Below are positions 34,350 through 46,151 of a DNA stretch of 62,429 nt, in pieces. Under the pieces are notes generated by a model. The model was not told where the DNA came from, searched no databases, and saw nothing but the letters and a program-made list of their open reading frames with translations. The position numbers and the translations under genes are program-made. Every line of letters begins with the position of its first letter. Position 1 is the first letter of the stretch. The stretch is from Truepera sp. bin119 (lineage in GTDB: Bacteria > Deinococcota > Deinococci > Deinococcales > Trueperaceae): the NCBI GenBank assembly GCA_002239005.1, contig MPNL01000016.1, forward strand, positions 1 to 62,429, in the 5' to 3' direction.

Positions 34350-34591
34350 ATGGTCGCCACCACTATGCTAACGGAGGTAGCACTGAGCTTCCTGGTCCTC
34401 GGAGTTTAGCCACTCACGGTCACCTGGGGTCTGATGCGGTCAGATGGTAGGGGGTACCTCGGCAGTGCCTGGTGGATATCGGCCTTTCCCGGGGTCGCCA
34501 TTGCATCAGACAGTTCTGGGGGTGGTATTCCTGGGTGATGCAGGAGCCACTCGACCCAGGGCTGTGCGGTCGCTGGAAGGAAAGGGGGTAG
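34350..34591 (+). pseudogene. DppC/OppC-type permease 3' remnant
   Basis: Three frames read in turn reconstruct the C-terminus of a dipeptide/oligopeptide ABC permease. Frame one gives MLTEVALSFLVLGV, an amber, then WGLMRSDGRGYLGSAWW and ISAFPGVAIA. A shift near 34508 gives TVLGVVFLGDAGA, and another near 34540 gives QEPLDPGLCGR before a stop. Functional relatives read LTEAALSFLGLGVQPP, WGLML, FPGLAI, LLGDGLRDALDPR. The TAG at 34407-34409 replaces the conserved Gln of LGVQ. The N-terminal three quarters are gone. It precedes the catabolic operon, so a transporter has probably been lost. Confidence 0.75.
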
Positions 34592-37018: not shown

Positions 37019-38092
37019 ATGGCCTATGATCTGACCAGTAGCGACCCTGTCACCCTCTTTCCCGAGGCGGAGTTGCGAGACTTCGTCGAGGGATTCCTCT
37101 TGGCCCTCGGTGCTACCGGCGAAGAGGCAGGCATCGTCGCCGACGGCATCGTCACCGCCTCGCTCTGGTACCACCCCGGCCAAGGGCAGGGGGTCGAGAA
37201 GCTCGTGCGCTACCACCGACGCGTCCGGGACGGCGGCATTGTCGTCGACGCCCCGATGCGCTGGGAGCGCGAGGGGCCCGGCTACGCCCTGCTCGATGCG
37301 GCCAAGGGGTTCGGCTACGTGGCAGCCCAGCGCGCCATGGCCAAGGCGGTCGAGAAGGCCCGGGTCACCGGCTTCGCCGGATCCTGGGTTCGCAACAGCA
37401 ACCACTTCGGTATCGCCGGTTATCACGCCCTGACGGCTGCCAAAGGGGGCATGATCGGTTGGTCGATGACCAACGCCCGGGCGGAGATGGCGCCCTGGGG
37501 CTCGGCCAAGCCGGTCCTGGCCACCAACCCCTGGGGGATCGCGATCCCCTATCCCAAGGGAGACCGGAGTCCGGTGCTACTCGACATGGCCCTCACCATG
37601 TCCGGGAAGGGCATGATGCGCTGGTACCTCGAGCAGGGCAGGCCGATCCCTGAGACCTGGGCACTGACGCCTGCAGGGGAGAAGACCACCGACCCCGCTG
37701 CGGCGATGGACGGTCCCATGCTGCCCATCGGTGAGTACAAGGGCTACGGCCTCAGTTTCGTTACCGACGTACTGACTGGGGTTATGAGTGGGGCGAGTTT
37801 CGGCCTGTCCGTGTTCCAGAACGAGGACCGCTACGATGTTGGGCACGTCATGATTGCGCTGGACCCCGCCCTGTTCATGCCCCGCGACCAGTTCGACGAG
37901 AGGCTTGCCCAGTTGATCTCGGAGGTGAAGGGTGCGCCACCGATCGATCCTGCCCGACCGGTCATGCTGCCCGGCGACCTCGAGCACGAGCGTGCACTGC
38001 GCCGTCGCCGAGAGGGGATCCCTGTGGCCCAGGACACCCTGGAGGCCCTGCGCCCGTTGGCACTCGGGCTCAACGTAGAACCCTTGGGCTAA
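37019..38092 (+). CDS. Ldh2-family NAD(P)-dependent dehydrogenase
   Basis: Malate/L-lactate/ureidoglycolate dehydrogenase family (Ldh_2), which reduces 2-oxoacids or similar imines. Recognised by GFAGSWVRNSNHFGIAGYHAL (with the catalytic His), the ATNPWGIAIP nucleotide-binding region, and GEYKGYGLSFVTDVLTGV with the conserved Lys-Gly-Tyr-Gly. Length 357 is standard. Because an allantoicase gene occurs 15 kb away, ureidoglycolate dehydrogenase is possible, but operon context favours an amino-acid-derived substrate. Confidence 0.85.
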   Translation: MAYDLTSSDPVTLFPEAELRDFVEGFLLALGATGEEAGIVADGIVTASLWYHPGQGQGVEKLVRYHRRVRDGGIVVDAPMRWEREGPGYALLDAAKGFGYVAAQRAMAKAVEKARVTGFAGSWVRNSNHFGIAGYHALTAAKGGMIGWSMTNARAEMAPWGSAKPVLATNPWGIAIPYPKGDRSPVLLDMALTMSGKGMMRWYLEQGRPIPETWALTPAGEKTTDPAAAMDGPMLPIGEYKGYGLSFVTDVLTGVMSGASFGLSVFQNEDRYDVGHVMIALDPALFMPRDQFDERLAQLISEVKGAPPIDPARPVMLPGDLEHERALRRRREGIPVAQDTLEALRPLALGLNVEPLG

Positions 38093-38094
38093 AG

Positions 38095-40134
38095 GTGCGG
38101 GGGGAGTGGTCGGATGGGGGTTGGTATGGGGATGCGCACTACAGTGGTCCGAGCGGGACCGTAAGCAGGCGCAGCATCCGGCGCGGACCCGAAGACCCGG
38201 TCAGGTTCCGCTCTAGGTGGCTCTCGACCCGGCCAGCGGGTCACGTTTACTGTCAGCGGGTGGATGCGCCTGGGAACGGCTACCGTACCCACCCCTACCT
38301 GAGCGATATCGAGAGGGACGAGTTGGCCCGGGTCACGGGTAGTTCCGGGCGCACCTCGAGCCCAGCCTAGAGTGGCGACGGCGAACACCTCGCCTTCGCT
38401 TGGAGCGACGGGGGGCAGCGTAGCGTACACATCTGGTCGGTTGCGCGCTGCCAGGCCGAGGTGTTCGGTGTGGGCGACGCTCCGTTGACGGGGCTCGACT
38501 GGTCACCGACCAACGACCGCATCGCCGGGGTGAGGTGGACGCCGTTCCGCTACGAGCGCGATTCCGGCCACCGTCCTGGCATTCTCGCCCCGAATGTGAA
38601 GGTGATCCGCCGTCTCCGCTACAAGCAGGATGGGGTCGGCTTCGTGCACGATCGCTACTCCCAGGTCTGGGTGCTCGAGCTCCCCCGCGGGGACCTTGTG
38701 CAGGTCACCGATAGCGAGTGTGACTACTCGGAACCGAGTTGGAGCGGCTCCGGCGACCGGCTCGCCTTCATCGGCCTCGCCCGGGAGCAGAACGAGGCGC
38801 TCGGGCAGGGCCAGATCTTCGTCTGCGCCTACCCCGAGGGTGCCCCTGTGCGCCTGCTCCCGGACTGGCAGGGGGCCTGTCGCAGCCCGGTCTGGGGCGA
38901 CCTTGATCGTTGCATCGTCTTTGCTGGTCACGACTACCCCGCCCCTACCAACCGCCGGATCTTCATGACTCCCCACTCGGCTGATGTCAAGGCTGGGACA
39001 GCGCGTCGGCTTGCGGTCCTGGATCAGGAGGTCGGCAACTACGCCGCGTCGGACTCGAGGACGAGCCTCTCCAACATCACCGTGAAATGCCCCCCTGGGG
39101 ATCCCTGGGTCTACTTCCTGCTCACGGTTGAGGGCAGCGTGCAGCTGTGCCGCATAGGCTTTGAAGGCACCTCCTATGAGCAGCTGGTAACGGGGCCGGG
39201 GGTCGCCTTCGACTTCAGCCCCGCCGCTGGGGGGGTGGTCGCCTACGGTTGGGCCGAACCTACGACTCCCGGCGACCTGTTCGTGTGGACGCCAACCGGG
39301 AGTGAGCGACTCACCGCCCTCAACCCCTGGCTCAACGATCATCGGTTGGCCAAACCTGAGGAGCGCTGGTTCGAGGGTCTGGACGGCGCTCTTGTCCACG
39401 GCTGGTTGCTCAAGCCTCCTGACCTCGATGAGACGAAGCGCTACCCGACCGTCGTCTATGTCCACTGCTCTATGTTCTCCTGGGACTTCAGTCACGAGTT
39501 TCAGTGCCTGACCGAGGCGGGCTACTGGGTCCGCTACTTCAACGCTCGCGGAACCACCGCGGGCTACGGGCAGGCCTGGACCCGAGCCAGCGAGGGCGAC
39601 CAGGGGGGCAAGGATTTCGAGGAGACGATGTTGGGGGTCGATGACCTGATCCGACTCCCTTACGTCGACGCGGAGCGGCTAGGCGTCACCGGAGGTAGCT
39701 GCGGCGGGTTCATGACCAACTGGATTGTGGGTCACAGCGATCGCTTCGCTGCAGCCGTAACCCGGAGGTCGATCGTCAATCAGGTCAGCTTCTTCGGCAC
39801 CTCGGATATCGGCCCGGAGTGTACCGAGGGGGAAACGGGGGCCAACCCCTTCGGGGACCTCGAGACGACCTGGCGACAGTCCCCCATCACCTACGTGGAC
39901 AGGATTCACACGCCGCTACTCATTATCCATAGCGACGAGGATCATCGGTGCCCACTCGAGCAGGCGGTGCAGCTGTTCGCCGCCCTGCGTTGGCTCGGGC
40001 GTGATGTCGAGTTGGTCGTCTTCGAGGGTGAGAGCCACGGGCTGTCGCGTGGGGGCTGGCCGGGGAACCGGATCGAGCGTCTGCGGAGGATTCTGGGTTG
40101 GTTCGAGCGCCACTTGGGAACCCAGCCACCGTGA
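38095..40134 (+). pseudogene. S9-family prolyl oligopeptidase interrupted by an amber codon
   Basis: The frame from GTG 38095 to 40134 is continuous except for TAG at 38368-38370. Sequence on both sides belongs to one protein: VYCQRVDAPGNGYRTHPYLS and DELARVTGSSGRTSSPA before the stop, SGDGEHLAFAWSDGG after it. Homologues read SPRWSPDG here, so TAG most likely replaces Trp (TGG). Downstream is a beta-propeller and an alpha/beta-hydrolase domain with intact triad: nucleophile in GGSCGGFMTNW, Asp in HSDEDHRCP and His in GESHGLS. The total of about 680 codons equals a normal S9 peptidase. Translation from a later start would remove part of the propeller. Confidence 0.8.
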
Positions 40135-40182: not shown

Positions 40183-41232
40183 ATGCGTGCAGGTAATCTG
40201 GAAGCCAAGCCCGGGGAGCACACCTTCGGGTACCTGGAGGGCCCGAGGTCCCGCTCGGGCCTGGCGCCCGACGTACCGGTGCACCTGTTCGCCGGTGCCG
40301 AACCAGGGCCGACGCTACTGGTGCAGGGGGCCATCCACGGAGCTGAGGTGATCGGTTCGATCGCCATCTTGAACTTCATCAAGGGGCTCGATCCGACCAC
40401 GATCCGTGGCAACGTGATCGCGGTACCTGTGGTGAACCGGGTCGGCTTCGAACTCGGCGAGCGCGGCTCGAGCGTCGACGACAAAGACATCAGCCGGCTC
40501 TTTCCCGGCAAGCCGAATGGGAGCGTCTCGGATCAGATCGCCCACCTCTACTTCCGCGAGGTGATCGAGCAGGCCGACGTGATGATCGACTTCCATGCCG
40601 GGGCCCGAACCGCCTACGAGCGCTACGTGCTCTTCAGCGCCGAAGGGGATCCCGACCACCCCACCGATCTGGAGCTGAAGCGGCGCAAGCTTGTGGTCGC
40701 CTTCGGGCTCGATCAGGCCGCCTTCTTCCCCCCGAACACCTTCGGTGCGAACCGGGCCAAGGAGGCTATTGAGGAGGCGGGGGTAGTCCAGATCACGCTC
40801 GAGTTCGGTGGAGGGACCGGCTGGTTTAAGAATGGTGAGGACAACGTCGCCGACGCTGAGCGCGGCATCTGGAACATCATGAAATCGATGCGGATGATCG
40901 ACGGGGAGTTCGAGGCGGACGGTCCCGAGTGCACGGTCTACAATGCCTGCGTCGTCCTCTGGAAGCCTGCGGTCGACGGCCTCTTTGTCCGCAAGCGTAG
41001 GTTCGGTGAGAGGGTCGCGGCGGGTGAGGTCTACGCCACCCTCGTCGATCCCTACAGTGGTGAGACCCTTGCCGACATCCCCAACACGCAAGACGCCATC
41101 GTGATCCCTAGCGGCCAGGAGTGGGTCACCATCGGGGCGACCTCGATCGGTATCCTGGGCGAGATCGACCGGGTCGAGAACCGTCGCACGGCCGATCTCT
41201 ACGTCTCCTTCGACTTGGAACAGGGGGGTTGA
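40183..41232 (+). CDS. AspA/AstE-family deacylase (succinylglutamate desuccinylase/aspartoacylase type)
   Basis: Zinc carboxypeptidase-like amidohydrolase that removes acyl groups from amino acids; the branch includes ectoine-pathway DoeB/EutE. The zinc ligands are His52 and Glu55 in GAIHGAEV and His138 in MIDFHAG, with catalytic Glu207 in QITLEFGGG, all intact. The C-terminal lid is a short beta domain. Length 349 fits DoeB-like proteins. It lies 48 bp after the peptidase and 1 bp before its own degenerate paralogue. Confidence 0.86.
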   Translation: MRAGNLEAKPGEHTFGYLEGPRSRSGLAPDVPVHLFAGAEPGPTLLVQGAIHGAEVIGSIAILNFIKGLDPTTIRGNVIAVPVVNRVGFELGERGSSVDDKDISRLFPGKPNGSVSDQIAHLYFREVIEQADVMIDFHAGARTAYERYVLFSAEGDPDHPTDLELKRRKLVVAFGLDQAAFFPPNTFGANRAKEAIEEAGVVQITLEFGGGTGWFKNGEDNVADAERGIWNIMKSMRMIDGEFEADGPECTVYNACVVLWKPAVDGLFVRKRRFGERVAAGEVYATLVDPYSGETLADIPNTQDAIVIPSGQEWVTIGATSIGILGEIDRVENRRTADLYVSFDLEQGG

Positions 41233-41233
41233 G

Positions 41234-42202
41234 GTGAGGATCGGATCGATCGAAGCCCAAGCTGGCGAGAAAGTCTACGGCAAGTTCGAGGTCGGTAGGA
41301 CCCAGGCGCGATTCCCCGTCCATATTCCGCTGCACATCGTTCGAGGCGCGTCTGACGGGCCCGTGCTGCTCGTACAGGCCGGCCTGAGCGGTCTCGAGGT
41401 CGAACCCTCTCTGACCCTACCCGGAGTCGTAGCGGAACTCGACCCCGGTGAGTTGGCCGGGACGCTGATCGTGGTTCCGCTGCTCAACACCTCAGGCTTC
41501 GAGTTCGAGCAGGTGAGCGCTGCCTGGGATGGTAAGGACCTGACTGCCTTGGGTCGTGGCGAGGCTGCCGGCACGATCAGCGAGCAGCTGATCCACCGCT
41601 ACTTCACCGAGGTCGTCTCCCGGGTCGACGCGCTGATCGATATCCGCACCGGCGCCCAGTGGGGCTACTTCCGCTACGCTGGGGTCTACCGGACGGGCGC
41701 GGTGGAGGCCTCGAGGGCTCTCGCCAGCGCGCTCGGTCTGCCGCAGGTCCTGTTAGGGCAGCCGGAGGACAGCTCCACTGCTCTCGAGGCGGCCCGCGAC
41801 GAGAAGGTGGTGGTCTCGGCCTGGATCGGCGGTGGTCCGGGGCTACGCGACTACCGGGAGGAGGATATGCGTCGCGTCCGGAACGCTGTCCTGAACGCCC
41901 TGAGGCACCTCGGAATGCTCGCTGGCGAGCTTGAGTTCGAAGGCGGTTCCACCGAGGTGATCGACGGGCACACCTTCCTTACCCCCAGTGGGGAGCGCGG
42001 CTTCACCTTCATAGATAAGGGCAAGCGAGGCTGTTCCGTCGCCGCAGGCGAGCAGCTCGGGTATGTCATGCACCCCTACACGGGTGAGATCCTCGAGGAG
42101 ATCAGGGCTCCCCGGGTCGGCGTCATGCTGCACGCTGGGGCCTCATGGCCGCTCCCTCCGGAGGGGGCCATCCTGGCTATCCTCGGAGACCCGGTCGCTT
42201 GA
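41234..42202 (+). CDS. AspA/AstE-family paralogue without zinc or catalytic residues
   Basis: It aligns with the upstream gene with few gaps: residue numbering of the first two motifs is identical. All key residues except one are replaced. His52 is Ser, Glu55 is kept, His138 is Arg (LIDIRTG), and the catalytic Glu position is Ile (SAWIGGG). The frame of 322 codons is intact, starts with GTG 1 bp after the previous stop and has similar base composition, so it appears under some constraint. It may form a heteromer with the active copy. Decay after duplication is the alternative. Confidence 0.78.
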   Translation: MRIGSIEAQAGEKVYGKFEVGRTQARFPVHIPLHIVRGASDGPVLLVQAGLSGLEVEPSLTLPGVVAELDPGELAGTLIVVPLLNTSGFEFEQVSAAWDGKDLTALGRGEAAGTISEQLIHRYFTEVVSRVDALIDIRTGAQWGYFRYAGVYRTGAVEASRALASALGLPQVLLGQPEDSSTALEAARDEKVVVSAWIGGGPGLRDYREEDMRRVRNAVLNALRHLGMLAGELEFEGGSTEVIDGHTFLTPSGERGFTFIDKGKRGCSVAAGEQLGYVMHPYTGEILEEIRAPRVGVMLHAGASWPLPPEGAILAILGDPVA

Positions 42203-42284: not shown

Positions 42285-43439
42285 ATGCTGACATACGAGT
42301 CCCTTAAACGCGACGTAGCACAGCGTATCGAACGCGTCCAGGCGATGATGGCCGAGCTGGGGTTGGGCGCCCTCATCGTCGTGGCGGGGGGGGCACCGGG
42401 GGGGCTCGGTGCGCTCCGCTACATCAGCAATCTGCACCTGTGGGGGGGGGCGGCCTACGGCGTGCTCGGCAGTGAGGACCCCGACCCCTGGCTTCTCGTC
42501 TGGAGCAGCTACCAGGGGGTCTGGAGTCGCAACGAGGCGACCCTCCCCAGGGAGCGGGTCATCTCACCTTCCGACATCGTCGGGCGGACCGCAGAGCTCG
42601 CCCGCGGCTTCGCAGAGAAGGGTCGGCGCGTCGGCATGGTGAACATGAACAAGCTGCTGAGCGTCGGCGAGCACGCCAAGCTCATGGCCGCCCTTGACGG
42701 CTTCGAGGTGGTCGAAGTTACCGACGCCTACAACGCCATCCGCCAGATCAAGACCCCGTTCGAACTCGAGGCGATCCAGCAGAACGGTGCGATCCTCGAC
42801 GGCTGCATGGACATCTTCCGCGAGAACGCCCGGGTCGGCGCCCGCTACTGGGATGTGTGCGCTGCCACTGAGGCCTTCGCCAAATCCCGCGGCGCCTTCT
42901 GGGGCAGGACCAAGCTGTCGCTCGACCTCACCCCCTACACGGTGCCCACGGCCAAGGAATTGACTATGGGCCGGGACGATGTCATCAACTTCGAGATCGT
43001 GTACGAGTCCCCCTGGGGGTACTGGCTCGAGATGACGACCATCTTCTCGTTCGGTGACCTCCCCGACGAGGCCCACGCCCTGCTGCAGGGCTACCTCCGG
43101 GCGGTCGAAGCCTCTTCCGCAGCGGCCCGGAGTGGCAACACCTACGCCGATATCTCCGAGGCGAACGACACCACCCTGCGCGGGCTCGGCTTCCCCGTGG
43201 TGGGCAAGCACACCCCCGACTGCCACAGCACGGGTCTCGACGGGAGCGACGGACCCAACTCTATCTCGACACCGGGGTTTGAACTCAGGACGAACATGGT
43301 GCTGTCGTTCCATCCGGGGACCGTTCTGGAGGGTGACCGCGGCTTCCTGGTCTCCGACAACTTCCTGGTGACCCCGGAGGGTGCTGTGCGTCTCTCACCC
43401 CACAACGCGAGCCGCTATCACCTCCAGATCGACGGCTAG
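42285..43439 (+). CDS. M24-family creatinase-like hydrolase
   Basis: Pita-bread fold protein of the M24 peptidase/creatinase family, with an N-terminal creatinase domain (about 1-150) and a catalytic-type domain. The five metal ligands of aminopeptidases (Asp, Asp, His, Glu, Glu) are not conserved: the segments read INFEIVYE, YWLEMTTIF, HTPDCHSTGLDG, LSFHPGT and FLVSDNFLVT. Such substitutions are typical of non-metal members such as creatinase, and ectoine hydrolase (DoeA/EutD) also belongs to this family. Next to an AspA/AstE deacylase, a ring-opening amidohydrolase is the best guess. Confidence 0.8.
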   Translation: MLTYESLKRDVAQRIERVQAMMAELGLGALIVVAGGAPGGLGALRYISNLHLWGGAAYGVLGSEDPDPWLLVWSSYQGVWSRNEATLPRERVISPSDIVGRTAELARGFAEKGRRVGMVNMNKLLSVGEHAKLMAALDGFEVVEVTDAYNAIRQIKTPFELEAIQQNGAILDGCMDIFRENARVGARYWDVCAATEAFAKSRGAFWGRTKLSLDLTPYTVPTAKELTMGRDDVINFEIVYESPWGYWLEMTTIFSFGDLPDEAHALLQGYLRAVEASSAAARSGNTYADISEANDTTLRGLGFPVVGKHTPDCHSTGLDGSDGPNSISTPGFELRTNMVLSFHPGTVLEGDRGFLVSDNFLVTPEGAVRLSPHNASRYHLQIDG

Positions 43440-43472
43440 GGGACCTGCCCGGTCGCTGAAGGGGGGTTGAGC

Positions 43473-44609
43473 ATGGCCGCCACTTTCCGGGTTCCCCGGT
43501 CGCGCGTTCACGAGACCCATCGGGCTCTGAGGGAGGAGATCCTGACGGCGCTCGAGCCCCTCCTGTTCGGCCCGGTGGAGGGGGAGGGGCGCGAGATCCG
43601 CCAGGCGCTCGAGCGGCAATTTGCAGCTGCGACCGAGCGGGCCCACGCCACCGCTGTCCACTCGGGGACCGTCGGGCTCATAATCGCCCTGCGGGCCTGT
43701 GGGGTGGGTCCCGGAGATGAGGTCATCACGGTAGCGAACTCGGACATCTCTACGACCGGTGCGATCTCGCTGTGCGGGGCGGTACCGGTGCTCTGCGACG
43801 TCCTCGAGTCCGACTACACGATGGACCCTGGTCTCGTCGAGGCGCTGATCACGGAGCGCACGACCGCGCTCCTGCCGGTCGACCTCCACGGTCACCCGGC
43901 CGATGTCCGGACGCTCCGGGAGCTGGCCTCCGGGCGCGGCCTCAGGATCGTCGAGGATGCCGCCCTGGCTACCGGGGCCCAGGAGCATGGGAGGCCGGTC
44001 GGGGCCTTCGCCGACGCCGCCGTGTTCAGCTTCGCGCCCTTAAAGCCCGTGGGCAGCGTGGGGAGCGGGGGGATGATCACCTGTGACGATCCTGAGCTCG
44101 CCGAGCGGATCGTCCAACTGAGCGGCTACGGTCACGACCCCACTCCCCGCAGCGATGGCTACCAGAGCTACGTTGAGGAGGGCTACAATGTTCGCCTCGA
44201 CCCCCTGCAGGCTGCGCTAATCGGTATCAAACTGCCCCACCTCGAGGCTTGGACTGGGAGACGCCGCGCGATCGCCGAGACCTACCGGCAAGCTCTGGAG
44301 GATACCGCCGCCGTCACCCCTGAGTTCCGGCCAGAGTCGGGCCCGACCTTCCGCTCCTACACCATCCGAGTTCCCGATCAGAGGGGGGCCCACGACGCGT
44401 TGCGGCGGGCGGGGGTGGAGGCGGTGCTGCACTACGCCCCCCCGATATATCGCTACCCCGTGTACCGGTCCGGCCTAGCCGGCTCCGAGGCACTGCCCGT
44501 CACCGATACCCTGGCCACCGAACTGCTCTCGCTACCGGTCGCCGTCGAACTTGCCGAGGAAGAGATTCGCTACGTGGTCGACACCCTTCGCTCCTACCTT
44601 GGGGCATAG
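43473..44609 (+). CDS. DegT/DnrJ/EryC1/StrS-family aminotransferase
   Basis: PLP enzyme of the sugar-aminotransferase family. The catalytic Lys is in FSFAPLKPVGSVGSGGMI, the ring Asp in IVEDAALATGA, and the C-terminal YNVRLDPLQAALIGIKLPHLEAW follows the usual YNxRLxxxQAAxxxxQL. Length 378. I start at ATG 43473, six bases after a GGGGGG ribosome-binding-like run. Such enzymes usually act on nucleotide sugars, so its place in this amino-acid-type operon is odd. A flavoprotein-like fragment starts at its stop codon. Confidence 0.88.
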   Translation: MAATFRVPRSRVHETHRALREEILTALEPLLFGPVEGEGREIRQALERQFAAATERAHATAVHSGTVGLIIALRACGVGPGDEVITVANSDISTTGAISLCGAVPVLCDVLESDYTMDPGLVEALITERTTALLPVDLHGHPADVRTLRELASGRGLRIVEDAALATGAQEHGRPVGAFADAAVFSFAPLKPVGSVGSGGMITCDDPELAERIVQLSGYGHDPTPRSDGYQSYVEEGYNVRLDPLQAALIGIKLPHLEAWTGRRRAIAETYRQALEDTAAVTPEFRPESGPTFRSYTIRVPDQRGAHDALRRAGVEAVLHYAPPIYRYPVYRSGLAGSEALPVTDTLATELLSLPVAVELAEEEIRYVVDTLRSYLGA

Positions 44610-44674
44610 TGGGTGCCGGTCCGGCCGCCGTAGCGACCGCCAGAGCGCTCACCCACGAGGGGGAAAACCATGTC
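44609..44674 (+). pseudogene. Possible FAD/NAD-binding N-terminal fragment
   Basis: Starting at GTG 44609, which overlaps the DegT-type stop, the frame reads VGAGPAAVATARALTHEGENHV, which resembles the first Rossmann motif of flavoprotein monooxygenases (V-x-G-A-G-P-A-G-x-x-x-A-R-x-L). The rest of such a protein is absent; the frame runs antiparallel in sense into the MmgE gene in a different phase. It could be the stub left by a deletion, or chance. Confidence 0.35.
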
Positions 44675-46151
44675 CGACCGCAGTCCGCTGGTTCAACGAC
44701 TGGTCGATCACGCCCTGCAGCTCCGTTACGAAGATATCTCGGAGGGGGCCGTCCGCATCGCGAAGTGGCTGGTGTTCGACTCGATCGGGACCGGGCTAGG
44801 CGGTTACCAGACCCTGAGAGGGCGGAAGGCTGTGGACTACGCCGCCGCGATGATGCCCGGCGACCAGGCCACGGTTCTAGGGAGCGGCCACCGGTCCACC
44901 GTCGAGGGGGCGGCGTTCGCCAACGGGACCATGATCAAGGTCTTGGGTATGGACGATTCGCACCGCTCCGCCGGCCATATCGCTGCGGGGGTGGGGGGGG
45001 CGGCTTCCGACAGGGTCACATAGTGCGGTGTTTGGGGTGGGCCGCTCCCCCCCCCCCCCCCGGCCCTTGGGGGGGGGGGGGTGGTCCCCGCCGTACTCGC
45101 GACGGCCGAGGCCTACCGGACCTCGGGGAGGATTGTGATCGAGGCCATCGTGGCCGCCTACGATCTCGCGGTCCGGCTCGGCAAGGCCGTCCGTACCGAA
45201 CAGCGCCGCCGCGGCCTCGATCTGAAGGGGACCTTGGGCCCCATCGCTGCGGCTCTGGCCGCCGGGCGCTGCGCCGGCCTCGAGCGCCAGATCCTGACCC
45301 ACGCCGTCAGCATGGCCGCCGACATGGCGTCGGGCACAGAGCAGTATGTCTACGAGAGTGGTGACTGCGACACCAAGGATCTGATCTCCGGGTTCGCCGC
45401 GCGCAACGGCGTGTTCGCGGTCCAGCTCGCCCAGTCGGGCTTCTTCGGCCCCTCTGGCGCCCTCGACGGTGAGTATGGGTTCCTGCACGCCTTCGGGGAC
45501 GGTGCCGGCGCCGAGGTCTTTGACGATCTGGGTGAGAGCTTCGCCATCACCTCGACGGCCTTCAAGCCACACGGCGGCTGCCGCCACACCCACCAGTCGG
45601 TCGATGCCGTGCAGCAACTACTCGCTACGGGGCCGCTCGAACCTTCCGAGATCGAGCGGGTGGTGGTGCGCACCTACCGCTCTGCCCTCGAGCCGTTCTT
45701 CCGGGTCGATCCGGACCCGGGCTCGCGCGAGGTGGCGAGCCTAAGCATTCGGGTCGCGACGGCCGTCGCCCTGAGCCGCGGCAGCACCTGGCCGAGCGAT
45801 CTCGCTCACTGGGACGATCCCGAGGTGCGGCGCCTGCGGCGGTTGGTGGAGCTTGAGGTCGACCCCGAGATCGAGAGCCGCTACCCCGACGGCAACGGCG
45901 CCCGCATCGAGGTGCAGCTGAAGGATGGCCGACGCCTCGAGGGGAGCGTCCCCTACGCCAAGGGTGAGCCGGAGTTCCGCATGACCGAGGATGAACTCCG
46001 GGTTAAATTCGAGGCGCTGACCTCGGAGTTGCTCCCGCCAGGCTGCGCCGACGAGCTATTCACGCGCTGCCTGAACCTGGAGAGCGAGCCGGGAGTCGGC
46101 CCGATCCTTGAGCAGACAGCGCCCCGGCTGGCGGTCGGAGCTGCTGACTGA
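44670..46151 (+). pseudogene. MmgE/PrpD-family gene split by a 90-bp insertion
   Basis: MmgE/PrpD proteins include 2-methylcitrate dehydratase and related iminosuccinate or aconitate-type enzymes. The first part (LVQRLVDHALQLRYEDIS, GSGHRSTVEGAAFANGTM, MDDSHRSAGHIAAG) and second part (VVPAVLATAEAYRTSG, AFKPHGGCRHTHQSVDAV) join perfectly if 90 bases are removed. The extra DNA carries an in-frame TAG at 45021. The insertion length is a multiple of three, so the downstream frame matches the upstream one. Without the insertion the protein would be about 463 residues, normal for the family. The interrupting DNA may be an assembly artefact, in which case the gene is intact. Confidence 0.8.
44987..45084 (+). 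repeat. 90-bp poly-C/poly-G insertion between direct repeats
   Basis: The octamer GGGGGTGG occurs at 44987-44994 and again at 45077-45084, exactly 90 bp apart. Between them are a C run (45047-45061) and a G run (45069-45081) that could form a long C:G hairpin with loop GGCCCTT. Removing one period restores the MmgE reading frame without the stop codon. Confidence 0.8.

Follow-up and report, generated by a model that had tools for sequence, protein, structure and literature searches.

Human aspartoacylase and bacterial AstE both belong to the AspA/AstE zinc deacylases. In the 62,429-nucleotide stretch of DNA from Truepera sp. bin119 that was analysed here (the window), two adjacent genes, which we call P1 and P2, encode an intact member of this family and its zinc-free sister. 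One of the closest described systems is DoeB/EutE (N-acetyl-L-2,4-diaminobutyrate deacetylase; 6twl, 6twm), which shares the fold and, by sequence and structure, ranks with the best-matching solved proteins for P1 and P2 alike. The likeness extends to the gene neighborhood: the DoeB/EutE gene also adjoins one for an M24-fold hydrolase (eutD), and the title of a 2020 paper by Mais et al. reports a hydrolase–deacetylase complex for EutD–EutE. Ectoine catabolism is not known to us to involve a dead sister subunit. Ectoine catabolism was considered as the pathway served by this locus and rejected on its NCBIfam scores, P1 reaching 109 bits and P2 54.5 against the DoeB/EutE equivalog TIGR02994, far below its cut-off of 402.7. 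The cyanophycin dipeptide hydrolase CphZ (8ein, 8eip) likewise has an AspA/AstE-type fold and a dipeptide-like substrate; it matches P2 with a TM of ~0.6-0.7 at 12-14% identity and has, to our knowledge, no dead partner.

Pseudoenzyme partners are well known among proteases and kinases. The heterodimeric metalloprotease TldD/TldE, whose activity was seen only with both subunits, is like P1/P2 a homologous pair with a metal site in one member and not in the other (PMC5810440); its fold and substrate are unrelated, and the P1–P2 complex is putative. M16 proteases are described as having catalytic and non-catalytic halves that are both required, with the active residues in one half as in P1/P2, on an unrelated fold (PMC12731061). 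The enzyme–pseudoenzyme principle is therefore already known, and the AspA/AstE case is new as far as the searched open-licence papers go, among which we found no report of an AspA/AstE pseudoenzyme or enzyme–pseudoenzyme pair.

P1 (40183..41232, plus strand; 349 aa) has an intact active site made up of His52 (40336-40338), Glu55 (40345-40347), His138 (40594-40596) and the catalytic Glu207 (40801-40803), and its closest solved relatives are 3cdx and the DoeB/EutE structures. Its TGA stop codon (41230-41232) is separated by one nucleotide from the GTG start (41234) of P2 (41234..42202, plus strand; 322 aa), in which the equivalent positions hold Ser52 (41387-41389), Glu55 (41396-41398), Arg138 (41645-41647) and, in place of the catalytic Glu, Trp197 (41822-41824). 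Both proteins match PF24827, the AstE/AspA catalytic domain, above its curated cut-off of 25 bits (P1 81.3 bits, P2 42.8 bits), and they align with each other over 315 residues at 31% identity (E=4e-48), a homology far beyond chance. P1 combines this homology with the HxxE...H ligands and the catalytic Glu of the catalytic family; P2 has the homology and the fold and lacks both the zinc-ligand set and the catalytic Glu. A first-pass annotation had described the coordinates, frames and spacing of the two genes, the intact 322-codon P2 frame, the four P1 residues and, at the same numbering, Ser52, Glu55 and Arg138 of P2, and all of this was reproduced. It had also assigned Ile to the P2 catalytic position. 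The alignment around that site (ITLEFGGG in P1, VSAWIGGG in P2) instead places Trp197 there and pairs Ile198 with P1 Phe208, the numbering having diverged by Glu207 because P2 is 10 residues shorter ahead of that point.

A P2 query against the GTDB genome collection (84,980 species, each represented by a single genome) returned 14 loci at 58-68% identity, whose titles name Anaerolineae/Anaerolineales, Armatimonadetes/Armatimonadota and one Pleurocapsa bin labelled cyanobacterial. Two further orthologues were added from within the family to which the window belongs. With the window included, the comparison set thus holds 17 P2 genes from its own lineage, Chloroflexota, Armatimonadota and the one cyanobacterial-labelled bin. 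Wherever the contig flank suffices, P1 lies directly upstream of P2 in the same order and on the same strand, at a spacing of -4 to ~+100 nt (locus L041 begins too near P2 to show P1, and L037 and L040 hold only its 3' end).

The tree of P1, P2 and 50 other AspA/AstE paralogues resolves P1 and P2 as single clades (SH-aLRT 100 each) that are sisters at 98, and a second tree has the same topology. This placement points to one duplication as the origin of both genes, which were inherited together afterwards. Among 111 genomes of the phylum that contains the window, three carry P2-type genes; for the phylum of L049 the count is two in 43, and for that of the Anaerolineae locus L045 it is one in a sample of 400, namely L045's own genome. 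Across the 111 and the 400, P1-type genes occur in exactly the genomes that hold P2-type genes, and are set apart by score (~690-700 bits versus ~190 or less for the remainder). The pair is rare and patchy and its members almost always co-occur. The exception to strict pairing is an Armatimonadota genome, G199, which has two P1–P2 pairs and an extra P1 copy (L094, 12034-13113) that is 66% identical and intact in its active site; no P2 follows this copy in the remaining 400 bases of the contig.

All 17 P2 reading frames are open. The dN/dS of P2 is 0.04 for L040/L041 and 0.10 for L045/L050, that of P1 is 0.03 for L045/L050, and synonymous sites are saturated or nearly so in the majority of the remaining pairs. 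Mean distances over shared loci are 0.49 for P2, 0.49 for the neighboring S9 peptidase and 0.29 for P1. Together with the low dN/dS, these distances show that P2 is under purifying selection and is being retained, with less constraint on it than on P1. The first-pass annotation had called P2 a maintained pseudoenzyme and had proposed a dN/dS comparison and a search for the pair in relatives as checks on this view. Both come out in its favor: the ratio is not near 1, no frame is broken, P2 changes no faster than its S9 neighbor, and genomes without P2 also lack P1-type genes, with the single extra copy in G199 as a qualification. Suspicious breaks nearby in the window assembly might suggest that P2 is a sequencing artefact, or a recent duplicate in decay; we give this next to no credence, since 17 open genes in several phyla with dN/dS of 0.04-0.10 rule it out.

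What has been lost in P2 bears on what it could still do. Every complete P1 orthologue keeps all four HEHE residues. In all 17 P2 proteins His52 is replaced, by Ser or in one case Gly, and so is Glu207, by Trp, Tyr, His or Phe; Glu55 is kept throughout, and at position 138 eleven proteins have Arg and six have His. The initial description of all but one active-site residue as replaced therefore holds for the window's P2, where Glu55 alone is kept, but does not extend to the six proteins that retain His138, so that the constant losses are those of His52 and Glu207. Invariant Glu55, with His138 where present, could in principle form an altered metal site in a P2 that is still catalytic. The Arg at position 138 in most of the set and the universal absence of His52 and Glu207 make this a very improbable account.

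P2 also has invariant residues of its own, Trp98, Asp99, Arg108, Trp143, Tyr145, Arg205, Asp206 and Arg208 in 17 of 17 proteins, through which it might have become a metal-independent enzyme for a different step. The M24-fold hydrolase encoded just downstream (42285..43439, plus strand; PF00557/PF01321) indicates that metal-free members of metalloenzyme folds occur at this locus: aligned to proline dipeptidase and to its orthologues, it has E, E, H, H and S, conserved across those orthologues, at the metal positions, where metal-dependent M24 enzymes have D, D, H, E and E. However, P2 switches between Arg and His at position 138 and among Trp, Tyr, His and Phe at position 197, unlike a catalytic centre, and we know of no non-metal catalysis in the AspA/AstE fold. 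We regard a neofunctionalised enzyme as distinctly unlikely.

The most conserved segments of P2, at 82-93 (PLLNTSGFEFEQ), 197-208 (GGGPGLRDYR) and 47-58 (SGLEIEP), are pocket-side or near-pocket loops. The extra conservation of the former pocket loops is just modestly above chance, the ancestral active-site stretches having an entropy of 0.59 versus 0.96 for the rest of the domain, with 4.6% of circular shifts as low. Such loops would fit a P2 repurposed as a free-standing protein that binds or senses small molecules, with a pocket retained for a substrate or product of the pathway, and that regulates the pathway without a stable P1 complex. This view has no need of the near-obligate adjacency and co-occurrence with P1, and P2 has lost the equivalents of P1 Arg94 and the FPG-loop Arg105 as well; we hold it to be unlikely, if worth keeping in mind.

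The genes conserved around the pair encode an Opp/Dpp-type ABC binding protein and permeases, two adjoining class I/II aminotransferase-fold proteins, an Ldh_2-family 2-oxo/2-hydroxy acid dehydrogenase (37019..38092; PF02615), an S9 prolyl-oligopeptidase-type peptidase directly upstream of P1 (38461..40134; PF00326; syntenic in 11 loci) and the M24-fold hydrolase. A DegT/DnrJ-type aminotransferase gene (43467..44609; PF01041), conserved downstream in L051, L052 and L049, is followed by an MmgE/PrpD-family gene (44670..46151) that is split in this assembly; all of these window genes are on the plus strand. Several Anaerolineae cassettes also hold a third AspA/AstE gene, intact, and some cassettes a D-2-hydroxyacid dehydrogenase, an M55 D-aminopeptidase, or DegT and PrpD genes. 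From its gene content, the cassette seems to import and degrade a peptide-like compound or an N-acylated amino acid.

The window assembly has several irregularities here. S9 homology extends upstream of the listed open reading frame (38158-38461), which is shortened by an in-frame TAG that is either a true nonsense change or an assembly error. The PrpD gene carries an insertion of ~30 codons (45000-45090), rich in G/C runs and containing a stop, that is absent from the L052 orthologue and looks like an assembly artefact. Frameshifts were considered for both breaks and ruled out by the in-frame TAG and the insertion, respectively. Upstream of the aminotransferase-fold gene C8 (see below) stands a remnant of an OppC/DppC-type permease (34350-34539; 78% identity over 51 aa, in two frames); the permease genes at this place are intact in L051 and L052.

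The two aminotransferase-fold genes form a pair of a similar kind. C6 (35782..36933, plus strand) is an intact class I/II aminotransferase that keeps the PLP Lys (LSKSYAMTGWR); its best NCBIfam match, GntC, is below cut-off. The adjoining C8 (34656..35723, plus strand) matches aspartate aminotransferase 1o4s (E=2e-21), and in an alignment of seven C8 and seven C6 proteins the PLP-lysine segment is replaced by GE-x-[FW]-PG-[VL]-G-[LI]-E in all seven C8 proteins. C8 diverges much faster than C6 (53% versus 78% identity between the window and L051), and its dN/dS in one close pair, L040/L041, is 0.16. C8, conserved in seven loci, appears by alignment to be a second pseudoenzyme in the cassette.

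Structure prediction bears on both the fold of P2 and its possible contact with P1. The AF2 model of the window's P2, built on a 64-row alignment, has a pLDDT of 91.4 and a pTM of 0.91, and its best structural matches are DoeB/EutE 6twm and 3cdx at a TM of ~0.8; P2 is thus predicted to keep the AspA/AstE (DoeB/EutE) fold. For L044, P1 was joined to P2 in a single-chain model by translating across the in-frame stops, which leaves a 31-residue linker; this model, from a shallow alignment of 17 rows, has a pLDDT of 73.6 and a pTM of 0.67. By our own estimate a pTM of ~0.5 is roughly expected for two equal halves whose relative placement is free, and the higher value is at most suggestive of a defined P1–P2 arrangement. 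Distance correlation (mirror-tree) was tried as a sign of contact and set aside as uninformative, because the P1–P2 value of 0.82 is not above those of P1 with other cassette genes (0.90 for S9, 0.93 for M24).

P1 and P2 are catalytic and non-catalytic homologues that are conserved and encoded together, as in known heteromers, and the role that the first-pass annotation had suggested for P2, as part of a heteromer or a regulatory subunit, is plausible. An intact dead copy kept beside P1 in several phyla suggests a partner subunit rather than an enzyme. The sister clades, fixed gene order, co-occurrence, purifying selection and pocket-loop conservation all count for a heteromer, as does the linked L044 model, which is the one direct hint of contact; the extra P1 without a P2 in G199 and a mirror-tree that lends no specific support count against it. 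Operon adjacency and co-inheritance also fit two proteins of the same pathway that never touch. On balance we favor a model in which P1 and P2 are an obligate enzyme–pseudoenzyme heteromer, encoded within a cassette for oligopeptide-type uptake and breakdown, where we infer the complex, the role of P2 and the substrate. We envision that P1 would be a zinc deacylase of the AspA/AstE fold, with DoeB/EutE, a deacetylase of ectoine catabolism, as its nearest characterised relative, and that one tandem duplication of a common ancestor produced P1 and P2, with P2 then losing the zinc site and the catalytic Glu. P2 would have been retained as a subunit with no catalysis of its own, serving to shape, gate or stabilise P1 or to bind an effector. 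The pathway could run from oligopeptide-type ABC import through the S9 and M24 hydrolases to deacylation by P1/P2 and then to aminotransferase and dehydrogenase steps.

Weak matches to P2 led to a second set of adjacent intact and dead AspA/AstE genes in other lineages, in the genomes G146/G645, G115/G711 and G138/G733 (loci L092, L109, L110, L111, L112 and L113). In every pair the first gene retains the complete HEHE set, which is lost from the second; positions 52/55/138/207 of the second read R/E/T without Glu, Q/H/Q/S, H/H/Q/S, Y/E/C/K or Y/E/H/H. These dead copies have uninterrupted frames, with a dN/dS of 0.13 for G146/G645 and somewhat higher values in more distant pairs. In a quick tree the first and second genes of this set form one clade (98) apart from P1/P2, and on that tree the arrangement appears to have arisen at least twice. 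The first-pass claim of a new arrangement is in keeping with the open-licence papers searched, but with this second family the pair is not unique. A circularly permuted ATP-grasp gene (CP_ATPgrasp) lies near two of the second-set loci, and the G115 and G711 pairs follow genes for a histidine kinase and a sigma-54 regulator. Two other tandems were rejected as such pairs: both AspA genes of L053 are intact, and the AspA/AstE-like genes at L091 2834-4781, with HGDD for HGxE and no catalytic Glu in either, are a different case. Genomes of the window's own family also hold AspA/AstE paralogues (L034, L055, L056, L057 and L058) that keep the zinc ligands and have Met or Gln for the catalytic Glu.

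A second, separately derived family of adjacent genes is what would be expected if the fold tends toward working dimers with one dead subunit. We speculate, tentatively and at somewhat less than even likelihood, that enzyme–pseudoenzyme heteromers make up the catabolic pathway of the cassette, one pairing a deacylase with its zinc-free twin and the other an aminotransferase with a twin that lacks the lysine, and that AspA/AstE pairs arose at least twice in bacteria, so that this fold would tend to form dimers in which one subunit can be freed from catalysis to gate substrates or bind effectors.

P2 passes the PF24827 cut-off and would be annotated automatically as an active deacylase; such annotations may therefore be wrong. 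The cross-phylum pair, with its 17 P2 genes, and the second family offer a clean system for the role of a dead subunit in a small-molecule deacylase, and C8/C6 provides an aminotransferase-type pair for comparison in the same operon.
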